Shown here: positions 55,107 through 59,040 of the stretch, piece by piece | Layout of the letters: the number at the start of each line of letters is the position of its first letter | How positions within the stretch are numbered: the first letter of the stretch is position 1 | Source of the DNA: Eubacteriales bacterium | GTDB taxonomy: Bacteria > Bacillota > Clostridia > Lachnospirales > Lachnospiraceae | Length of the DNA: 64,000 nucleotides | Direction: 5' to 3' | NCBI GenBank assembly: GCA_030537935.1 | Contig: JAUNUY010000002.1 | Location: 1-64,000, forward strand | Position numbers and translations under genes: made by a program | Notes under the pieces: generated by a model | Databases searched by the model: none | Told to the model about the DNA's origin: nothing | The model's input: the letters and a program-made list of their open reading frames with translations, nothing else

Positions 55107-55421
55107 TTATTTCTCCTTCATCTTAATGTTGATGTTGATGCCGGCCGGCATGTCCAGCTTACCTAAAGCCGCAACCGTGCTCGATGTCGGAGCGATAACG
55201 TCAATCAGACGTTTGTGCGTTCTCTGCTCAAATTGTTCACGGGAATCCTTGTACTTATGTACCGCACGGATGATTGTAACCACTTCCTTCTTCGTCGGCA
55301 GCGGTACCGGCCCGCTGACTTGAGAACCCGTGTTCTTCACCGTCTCCACAATTTTCTTCGCGCACTGATCGATCAACTGGTGATCATAAGCCTTTAATGT
55401 TAATCGCATTATTTGACCCAT
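55107..55421 (-). CDS. rpsJ: 30S ribosomal protein S10
   Basis: A 104-residue S10: [70 protein letters not shown]. The ATG after GGAGGAG adds four residues (MGQI) before this usual start; both start codons are in frame. It is first in the 31-gene super-operon and is also a Nus factor family member (NusE). Confidence 0.97.
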
Positions 55422-55453
55422 AAAAAAAGTCTCCTCCTTTTCGTACTTATAGC

Positions 55454-55535
55454 ACGACAAGTGGCGACTGTACACTTATCCGGGCGTATCGCGATGTTAC
55501 ACCCGAAGATATAAAACGGTACAGTGACTTGTCGT
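55454..55535 (-). promoter_or_regulatory. Large hairpin in the S10 operon leader
   Basis: On the minus strand the outer arm at 55519-55535 (ACGACAAGT-cACTGTAC) pairs with the arm at 55454-55473 (GTACAGT-cgcc-ACTTGTCGT), apart from a small internal loop. Between them CGGGTGT and ACGCCCG (55499-55505 and 55481-55487) form an inner stem with one G-U. The structure ends about 30 bases before the rpsJ start. Placement and size fit a ribosomal protein autoregulatory leader; the ligand is unknown. Confidence 0.6.
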
Positions 55536-55632
55536 CAGTTTTACACAGACATTCGCTCCACGGAAAAACCCATGAGAAACCTACTCTCCCATGACAACCT
55601 CCGCTTCACAGCTATCATGTCACAACTCCGTC

Positions 55633-55661
55633 ATTATATCGCAACCGTGTTCAAAAAGCAA
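55633..55661 (-). promoter_or_regulatory. Promoter of the S10-spc-alpha super-operon
   Basis: On the minus strand TTGCTT (55656-55661) and a perfect TATAAT (55633-55638) are 17 bases apart. Transcription from here gives a leader of about 205 bases containing the 55454-55535 hairpin. Confidence 0.65.
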
Positions 55662-55763: not shown

Positions 55764-55800
55764 GCAAAAGCCCCGCACGACCAATCGCCGTACGGGGCTT
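55764..55800 (-). terminator. Terminator of the surface protein gene
   Basis: On the minus strand AAGCCCCGTACG pairs with CGTGCGGGGCTT around a 9-base loop, followed by TTTGCG. It lies 46 bases after the stop codon. Confidence 0.75.
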
Positions 55801-55845
55801 CCATCAGACATAATATCATCCGTGCTCTTTATATTATGGAATCGC

Positions 55846-58800
55846 TTAGCGAACCACACCGTTCGCATCGGCAAAATACCATGTCCCTTTCACACATATC
55901 CATTGCTTCTGGGCTATCGCACCGCTCTCCGTCGCATAGTACCATTCGCCGTTCACGTATACCCATTGATTTTGGGCTATCGCACCGCTCTTGACTGCAT
56001 AATACCATACACCGTTCACGTACACCCATTGATTTAACGCAATGCGTCCGCTGTTCGTCGCATAATACCATACGCCGTTCACGTACACCCATTGATTCTG
56101 GGCTATCGCACCGCTCTTTCCGGCATAGTACCAATCACCGTCTACATATACCCATTGGCTCTGTGCAATAACACCGGTACTCTTTGCATAGTACCATAAA
56201 CCGTCTACCAGCACCCATTGATTTTGAGCCAGTACACCGGTATTCATGGCATAATACCATGCACCGTCATCATACACCCATTGATTTTGGGCCATTACGC
56301 CGCTGTTGCCGACCCAGCGCATGGCACCGTCTGAAATGACCATGGTATTGCGATCCATCTGTCCGCTGCCCGCTACGTGATACCACTGACCGTCGGTTTC
56401 AATCCAGGCATTCGTCTTTACGCCACCCTGACCGTCGGCATAGTACCACTCGTTATCTGCGGTAAACCAGCCTTCCGCCGGTATCTCGTCTTTTTTATTT
56501 TCCTTGTCCGCGATAGCTTTTTCCAGCGCATCGATAGTCTTGCCATGCTTTAATGCATCTTCCGCCTTGTCCACGGTCACCTGATCCGTGTCACAGTCAT
56601 CAAAGACTTGCTTCGCATGCTCGATGGCCGCCGTCAATACGGCGCCCGGATTTTCCACGGTTTCCGCATCCGCGATGGCTGCACGCAAATCAGTTTTATC
56701 ATAGATTAAGGTTGCATGCTTGAAGTCACACTTCAATTCCGCTTCCGGTGTCCATGTATTAAACTTGATTCTGTCGTACAGATTCAAGTCCTCAATTGGA
56801 TTTACTTCGCCCGGTTTTGGCTTTACACTTTGCATCGCATCCATGGCATCGACAACCATTTGCATGGCTATCGTGTAACCCCATGCTTTTTCCGATGCTG
56901 TCGCCATATCAAAGTTATCATCAAACAGACGGAAGGTGTGCGGGAATTCTCGAACCATGTGCTCGAATGATGCACCCTTCACCGTATAATTCACCGGATA
57001 ATGCTCAGGATTAGCCTTTCTTGCTATTAAGCTGATGTCACGGAAATACTCCCCAGCTTGTGCAAAAACTAGCGACTCTTCCCAAGCATCTGTTTCTCCA
57101 TCTGCCGGCATCGACGGATCACCTTCTTTATATTTTATACCCCAAAGATGACCCATAAAGCCCAACACGGAAATACTTTCTGTACGGAGATCCAAACTAC
57201 CTTTGCCGTCTTCTTCATAGAAGTAAGATGTGGACGCTAAACCGCCGGCGCCCATGGATAGATATTTATCATCTTTCCATTGATGCAAACGAACGGGCAC
57301 CTCATATTTTTTCATCTTATAAGCCGGCTTAGCCTCACCTTCCCGGAAATGCGGTTCTACCATCATCGCTTCATGAACAAAATCACCGACATTCGCCTCT
57401 ACATACTCACCCTGGTCAAGACGCCACGCGTTTGTAAAGAAACCAAGCAAAGGACCCTGCGTTTCTTTAAGCCATTGTTCAACCTCTTTTTGTGACATCT
57501 CTGGTTTGTTATGTTTAGCTGACCACTCAGCGAGAAAATTATCATTTGCTCCCACCCATGCCGGCTTGAGTTTCGACTTATCTCTCAAGTTATCATAAAT
57601 AAATTGGATATCATCCATCGTTTTACGGAATTGTTCACGCATAGGGGCATCCATACTATACCAATATACCGCATACAGTGTTCTATCCTTAGCAACTGTG
57701 AACGGGAATTCTTCCGCTTTGTTTGAATTAGCACGTTTTGCCCAATGTGCAAATGTATTATTCGGCTTTGCCGCCGGCTCCTCCGGCGCTTCAAACGGAT
57801 CCCCAACAAAAGCCTGTACCTGTTTTATTTCCGGTCCGTCCGAATCTTTCAAGGTGATTGTCACTTCGTCCGGTGTGGCATCCGTCACCTTTTTCAGTGC
57901 GGCGTCCACCGCCGGCTGGATGGCATTCGGATTGGCCAATACCTGCTCCGCCTCATCCAAGGCCGCTACCAACTCGGCCGACTTATTGATGACCTTCTTT
58001 GCTTTGTCAACCGCCGCCTGCAGGTCATCCGTCGATGCCGGAATCACCTTCCAGCCCGCCTTCAACTCCAAGGGACCCGTCACCGGTTGCGTGAAATCAT
58101 AGAGCACGTCATTCGCATACCAGCCCGTAAACTCATGGTACTCCTTTGTCGGTGCCGTCGGCTCCGCAACCGTTTCTCCCTCTTTCACGGTTACACTCGT
58201 TGTCGCCTCACCATTATCCGGATTGAATTTCACCACGTACTTGGCCCATGTTTTCTTTGCATTGGCCACATCAAACTGCAGTCTGGCAAACTGTGCACCA
58301 TCATTCGGATCACTCGGATCATAGGGATCGCCGCCGCTCAAAGCCTTCATCGCATCCACAACAACAGCAATCCGAATAAACGTATTGTACGACTCGGTCG
58401 AATTGAGGGCCGCATCCATATCAAAGTTGTCATAGGTCATGCGCAGCAGATGCGGGAACTCCCGAATTTCACCAAACTTTGCCTCGTCCCGATTCGGATA
58501 GTTGGCCGGCAATGCATCAATCTCTTCCGCCGTCGCTTCTCTGGTGTTCAGGGAGAAGTCCGTCCGATAATGGACGACATCTGCGACAGTTGTCAGATCC
58601 GACGTTTTTGCCGGCTGTGCCGTCGGGTCCTGCGGATTATAACTCATCTGCAGCAAATGACCGTACATGCCCAGGAATTTAAGACCGATAAGGCGAACCT
58701 CGAAGTACGTCTTATCCGGTGTCACGACAATTTGACCCGTCTGGGACATCGCACCGTTACCCATTGAGGCACGGTCCTCGTAGTTGTTCCATAAACGAAC

Positions 58801-59040
58801 CGGCACCTCGTATACGGCCGTCGCATCCGCCGGAACCTCCTCAACGTCACCGTCACGGAATGTATATACCAGGGTGTCCGCCGTCGGCATATACTCCCCT
58901 GCCGGTGTTTGCATTTCACGTGGCGTGTATCCTCCCGACGGGTCTTGCGCCGCTGCCGGAACAACCCCTGCAAATGTGGAGAAAACCATCAACCATGCCG
59001 TAATAACGGCTGTGAAACGTTTCCTTGCTTTCTGTTTCAT
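55846..59040 (-). CDS. Surface protein with duplicated NEAT-like module and cell-wall-binding repeats
   Basis: A 1064-residue exported protein. A signal peptide (about 1-31, cleavage near AAA-QD) is followed by module 1 (77-268), an InlB B-repeat/Flg_new-like domain (268-331), a FIVAR-like helical segment (338-388), a second beta-repeat-like domain (393-460), a linker, module 2 (579-772) and another helical segment (780-850). The C-terminus (857-1064) has ten units of 21 residues of the QWVYVNGxWYYA type. The two modules share YEVPVRL, SMGxG, LGMYGHL/LGFMGHL, REFPH, DNFDM and VVDAM, and loosely resemble NEAT (heme-binding) domains. There is no LPxTG; attachment would be by the repeats. The ATG follows AGGAGG. 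Confidence 0.85.
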   Translation of the reverse strand: MKQKARKRFTAVITAWLMVFSTFAGVVPAAAQDPSGGYTPREMQTPAGEYMPTADTLVYTFRDGDVEEVPADATAVYEVPVRLWNNYEDRASMGNGAMSQTGQIVVTPDKTYFEVRLIGLKFLGMYGHLLQMSYNPQDPTAQPAKTSDLTTVADVVHYRTDFSLNTREATAEEIDALPANYPNRDEAKFGEIREFPHLLRMTYDNFDMDAALNSTESYNTFIRIAVVVDAMKALSGGDPYDPSDPNDGAQFARLQFDVANAKKTWAKYVVKFNPDNGEATTSVTVKEGETVAEPTAPTKEYHEFTGWYANDVLYDFTQPVTGPLELKAGWKVIPASTDDLQAAVDKAKKVINKSAELVAALDEAEQVLANPNAIQPAVDAALKKVTDATPDEVTITLKDSDGPEIKQVQAFVGDPFEAPEEPAAKPNNTFAHWAKRANSNKAEEFPFTVAKDRTLYAVYWYSMDAPMREQFRKTMDDIQFIYDNLRDKSKLKPAWVGANDNFLAEWSAKHNKPEMSQKEVEQWLKETQGPLLGFFTNAWRLDQGEYVEANVGDFVHEAMMVEPHFREGEAKPAYKMKKYEVPVRLHQWKDDKYLSMGAGGLASTSYFYEEDGKGSLDLRTESISVLGFMGHLWGIKYKEGDPSMPADGETDAWEESLVFAQAGEYFRDISLIARKANPEHYPVNYTVKGASFEHMVREFPHTFRLFDDNFDMATASEKAWGYTIAMQMVVDAMDAMQSVKPKPGEVNPIEDLNLYDRIKFNTWTPEAELKCDFKHATLIYDKTDLRAAIADAETVENPGAVLTAAIEHAKQVFDDCDTDQVTVDKAEDALKHGKTIDALEKAIADKENKKDEIPAEGWFTADNEWYYADGQGGVKTNAWIETDGQWYHVAGSGQMDRNTMVISDGAMRWVGNSGVMAQNQWVYDDGAWYYAMNTGVLAQNQWVLVDGLWYYAKSTGVIAQSQWVYVDGDWYYAGKSGAIAQNQWVYVNGVWYYATNSGRIALNQWVYVNGVWYYAVKSGAIAQNQWVYVNGEWYYATESGAIAQKQWICVKGTWYFADANGVVR
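55849..56472 (-). repeat. Ten 63-base coding repeats (cell-wall-binding units)
   Basis: The 3' end of the surface protein gene encodes nine 21-residue units and a final one of 19. The central units are most alike (QWVYVNGVWYYA.xSGxIAQN), while the first three are degenerate. Such aromatic- and glycine-rich units resemble choline/cell-wall-binding repeats (as in LytA or clostridial toxins). Unequal crossing-over could change copy number in multiples of 63 bases. Confidence 0.9.

Follow-up and report, generated by a model that had tools for sequence, protein, structure and literature searches.

The S10 operon leader and its surroundings

The window, a stretch of 64,000 nucleotides from a Lachnospiraceae genome, carries rpsJ, which heads the S10 operon, on the minus strand (Table 1). 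By protein similarity, the named best matches of its S10 protein also come mostly from Lachnospiraceae. The gene upstream (55846-59040, minus strand) encodes a 1064-aa protein with C-terminal repeats of the cell-wall-binding type and is followed, at 55764-55804 on the same strand, by a strong GC-rich hairpin and a T run, so that the S10 leader is apparently transcribed as a unit of its own. The predicted promoter of this unit has a perfect −10 element, a weak −35 element that agrees at three of six positions, and a 17-nt spacer, and the pair is not listed by a strict promoter scan. A transcription start near 55626, as given in a first-pass annotation made from the sequence, fits the predicted TATAAT. 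Were transcription to begin there, both arms of the long-range hairpin described below would be contained in the transcript.

Table 1. Features of the rpsJ leader, with window coordinates and the basis of each assignment.
Feature	Position	Strand	Basis
Predicted promoter: TTGCTT (55661-55656), 17-nt spacer, TATAAT (55638-55633)	55633..55661	minus	read from sequence
RF03136 (S10-Clostridia r-protein leader), with stems P1 and P2	55617..55529	minus	cmscan, 59.5 bits
P2, last RF03136 stem: UGUC (55551-55548) / GACA (55533-55530)	55530..55551	minus	Rfam alignment
Hairpin H, 5′ arm: CGACAAG-TC-ACUGUAC	55534 to 55519	minus	sequence, conservation, class-wide complementarity
Hairpin H, inner stem: CGGGUGU (55505 to 55499) / ACGCCCG (55487 to 55481)	55481..55505	minus	folding, partner test
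Conserved core GAUACGCCCGGAUAAGU, consensus GAHACRCNCGG-N4-GUG	55474..55490	minus	alignments
Hairpin H, 3′ arm: GUACAGU-CGCCA-CUUGUCG	55473 to 55455	minus	sequence; single site in each of 174/200 Lachnospiraceae genomes
Hairpin T, terminator-like, Shine-Dalgarno-sequestering: AGUCGCCACUUGUCGUGCU-AUA-AGUACGAAAAGGAGGAGACU	55469..55428	minus	−16.6 kcal/mol; covariation; tie to the U-tract
rpsJ Shine-Dalgarno sequence AAGGAGG, in the 3′ strand of T	55439-55433	minus	sequence
U7 tract, immediately 5′ of the rpsJ start codon	55422..55428	minus	sequence; U census of relatives
rpsJ, encoding ribosomal protein S10 and opening the operon	55107..55421	minus	ORF list; 77-82% identity to Lachnospiraceae S10

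The upstream half of the leader belongs to RF03136

The first-pass annotation had raised the possibility that this was an undescribed r-protein leader. That can be ruled out: cmscan against Rfam returned a full-length match to RF03136 (positions 1-81 of the 81-nt model) that spans the upstream half of the leader and scores well above the gathering cut-off of 35.1 bits. It was the only significant Rfam match at the leader, and by score and place the window leader is a member of this family. An S10 r-leader in Firmicutes was already established, and many Clostridia examples had been added, according to PMC7247131; together with the Rfam match, this means that the leader had been described before. 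The family matched 97 of 100 Lachnospiraceae genomes, as well as Bacillus subtilis and Lactococcus lactis, which were included as control genomes. The S10-Clostridia leader is thus catalogued, yet we found no description of its mode of action.

Some 108 nt separate the end of the RF03136 match from the ATG of rpsJ. In P2, its last stem, UGUC and GACA pair, and the Rfam alignment places non-standard pairs in the inner part of the stem in the window sequence; TGTC/GACA or compensated forms of it recur in most relatives. The GACA strand of P2 is also part of the 5′ arm of a second structure, hairpin H, and the Rfam model stops within that arm. The window leader and RF03136 are therefore the same RNA, matched in full upstream of rpsJ, but the model lacks the remainder of H, the conserved core and hairpin T, all of which belong to the leader as analyzed here. 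This suggests that the Rfam model is truncated, and alignments from which it could be extended now exist.

A long-range hairpin is conserved upstream of rpsJ

Hairpin H had been described from the sequence as a large nested hairpin with long arms, an internal loop and an inner CGGGTGT/ACGCCCG stem, ending about 30 bases before rpsJ, and this description holds. The outer stem consists of 7+7 bp around an asymmetric internal loop, and the structure ends at 55454, 32 nt before the ATG at 55421. The segment from 55540 to 55420 folds at −38.0 kcal/mol, compared with a mean of −27.0 for shuffled sequences (z = −3.1; 2/200 shuffles as good).

Leaders from 218 rpsJ loci were compared. The 19-mer of the H 3′ arm, allowing at most one mismatch, occurs in 174/200 Lachnospiraceae genomes at one site each, and its reversed control in none of the 200. 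A covariance model, R1, built from 22 relatives with the window left out, recovered H in the window at 103.4 bits (E = 3e-25), and all 23 matches that it gave in 147 Clostridia genomes lie directly upstream of rpsJ. Within the Lachnospirales the arms are nearly invariant, with 97% of cells pairing as against at most 39% in slid versions of the alignment, and just two double changes were seen. Because most arm positions are invariant within the order, invariance alone is no proof of pairing, and the fraction of canonical pairs is uninformative for H when set against a tree-based null.

Such invariance would also be compatible with arms conserved for reasons other than RNA structure, whether as a DNA-level site, as a small RNA target or through chance complementarity. 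Leaders outside the set that bears hairpin T argue otherwise, in that their H arms often have other sequences and are still complementary. Their own duplexes average −15.1 kcal/mol and swapped duplexes −12.1, and 0/10,000 permutations did as well as the true partners. In one such leader (L121), UGAGAGGACUU/AAGUCCGCUCA takes the place of the CAAG..ACUGUAC/GUACAG..CUUG found elsewhere. The inner stem behaves alike: for 20 of 24 strand classes, the native partner gives better pairing than swapped ones do. As the fixed place directly upstream of rpsJ and the covariation of hairpin T also speak against an unstructured explanation, we consider it very hard to credit. At the level of sequence, the S10-operon leader structure posited in the first-pass annotation is upheld and is conserved, with complementarity that survives sequence change in relatives. 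The compensatory change for which a test was proposed there is found in part, being evident across the class but scarce among H arms of the Lachnospirales.

Distribution of the leader parts

In our alignments the core is found in Clostridia leaders even where T is absent. The H domain occurs in many Clostridia, and T with its U-tract in the Lachnospirales of this sample; the order in which H and T were gained is something we infer from a limited sample. Several leaders from other Bacillota (among them L222, L223, L224, L233, L240 and L246) have P1/P2 directly before the rpsJ Shine-Dalgarno sequence and no H domain. Some others (L105, L116, L043, L144, L146, L154 and L188) have the GAHACRCNCGG core enclosed by a short stem, with no RF03136-like part evident by eye. 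The RF03136 domain and the core/H domain may thus be separable. In many Clostridia outside the Lachnospirales (such as L143, L148, L185 and L193), a GC-rich hairpin followed by T's sits in the H loop, between the arms, and looks like a separate intrinsic terminator. We also considered rRNA mimicry by comparing the core, the arms and the P1 strands with 16S and 23S rRNA of a complete relative. Nothing convincing emerged, the one exact 10-mer in 16S having a nominal P of 0.01 among 18 comparisons.

A second, predicted hairpin covers the Shine-Dalgarno sequence

The 3′ arm of H has a second partner that the first-pass annotation missed, namely the Shine-Dalgarno region downstream. The resulting hairpin, T, has the consensus AGUCRCCRCUUGUCGUACU, into which the H 3′ arm runs, paired with AGURCGAAAAGGAGGNGRCU, the Shine-Dalgarno region; the ribosome-binding site consequently lies inside T, in its 3′ strand. 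Eight pairs of T changed on both sides, compared with 2.8 in shuffles (0/500), and canonical double changes fell on 10 branches where tree-based simulation led us to expect 1.2 (0/1000). The fraction of canonical variants was not separable from the tree null (112/1000), so we base the claim of covariation on the double-change counts and not on that fraction. One leader (L125), with AGUAACC/GGUUGCU, gives a clear single case of compensation.

T is also tied to the U-tract. When leaders were chosen by the T 5′ arm and not by the U-tract itself, every one of the 116 with the arm has five or more U ahead of the start codon, and 107 of these have exactly seven; among leaders lacking the arm, five or more U were found in 4/99. 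The spacing between Shine-Dalgarno sequence and AUG is 11 in 94/112 T leaders, and its mode elsewhere is 7.

These features could be taken to mean that control is translational only, with T sequestering the Shine-Dalgarno sequence without ever terminating transcription and the U7 tract serving as a spacer or ribosome-standby sequence. T does cover the Shine-Dalgarno sequence, and its base is weak, consisting of 4 bp (AGUC/GACU) followed by a conserved mismatch; T is moreover absent from a strict terminator scan, which omits it because the stem is interrupted. A mere spacer, though, need not track T as the U run does, and the U run lengthens the usual distance between Shine-Dalgarno sequence and AUG. 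On balance we regard purely translational control as unlikely.

At the conserved mismatch, position 55465 faces 55432 (AGUC[x]CC versus GG[y]GRCU), with A.C in 88 leaders, G.A in eight and A.G in five; a G-C pair was never seen there in the window or its relatives. A perfect T helix is seemingly avoided at this position, perhaps letting H compete.

H and T are alternative structures of similar predicted energy

H and T share AGUCGCCACUUGUCG and cannot coexist. In leader-only folds with either hairpin imposed, the two differ by 0.8 kcal/mol on average (sd 3.3), and by less than 5 kcal/mol in 90/108 leaders; for the window leader the energies are −70.3 with H and −68.8 with T.

Taken with the pairings and their conservation, these near-equal energies lead us to propose that H probably acts as an antiterminator and anti-sequestor, and T as both a terminator and a sequestor of the ribosome-binding site, the two forming part of the S10 r-leader's expression platform. 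With H formed, CGACAAG..ACUGUAC would pair with GUACAGU..CUUGUCG and keep AGUCGCCACUUGUCG off the Shine-Dalgarno region. Should H fail to form, the same bases would pair downstream to give T, whose terminal U7 immediately precedes the AUG. Transcription would be expected to stop there, and any transcripts escaping T would have their ribosome-binding site buried. Since GACA belongs both to P2 and to the 5′ arm of H, a protein that stabilizes P1/P2 should favor T; an excess of r-protein might in this way weaken H and bring about negative feedback on the operon, although the ligand and the direction of control are our supposition.

Points that count against the proposed switch are the weak base of T, the scarcity of double changes in H within the Lachnospirales, and the occurrence of H-like stems in Clostridia that lack T, where H has at least one other role. 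The H stem and core in leaders with neither T nor U-tract could indicate that H serves chiefly in a protein-binding domain, a long-range stem around the GAHACRCNCGG core, and not in a switch, its pairing to the Shine-Dalgarno region being of secondary importance. This explanation fits poorly with the Lachnospirales, where the same bases stay constant in each of the two pairings, T shows covariation, and the energies of the two hairpins are close to equal; a protein-binding role is in any case compatible with a switch. As the main account of H we find it improbable.

More speculatively, the long-range stem and the GAHACRCNCGG core might form a second conserved RNA domain beyond RF03136 that senses a ligand of its own, with both domains feeding one terminator/Shine-Dalgarno switch in the Lachnospirales. 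We consider this less likely than not; were it true, the S10 operon would be under two-input RNA control.

The switch between H and T, which we favor, is stated in testable terms, for it names the competing bases, the site at which transcription would stop and the bases that would hide the ribosome-binding site. The bases that make it up are kept across a large, gut-associated family, and the operon that it precedes is a major one for ribosomal proteins.

Comparison with known systems

No published description of H or T was found in the text of the papers within our reach, and an earlier drawing of H is possible. Within those limits, H and T constitute an extension of the RF03136 leader with no prior description found.

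Another RNA in the 5′ UTR of rpsJ in Clostridia is the rpsJ motif RLC-47-1, proposed as a ribosomal leader in three genera of Peptostreptococcaceae (PMC11109978). By that description, it shares its genomic position with the window leader and differs in family. In Escherichia coli the S10 leader is controlled by L4, which acts on transcription, by attenuation, as well as on translation (PMC10931766). It too precedes the S10 operon, but it appears to be a different RNA, as RF03136 was the only significant match that cmscan gave at the window leader; the L4 mechanism of the E. coli type to which the first-pass annotation pointed finds no specific support here.

A likeness in architecture is offered by the dual expression platforms of riboswitches (PMC2258182), where a terminator lies so near the gene that the ribosome-binding site falls within its 3′ side. 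T resembles these platforms: it is a terminator-like hairpin with a U-tract, its 3′ strand contains the ribosome-binding site, and H competes with it from upstream as another pairing does there. The platform in the window differs from them in that it serves an r-protein leader, is nearly invariant across the family and presumably answers to a protein ligand.
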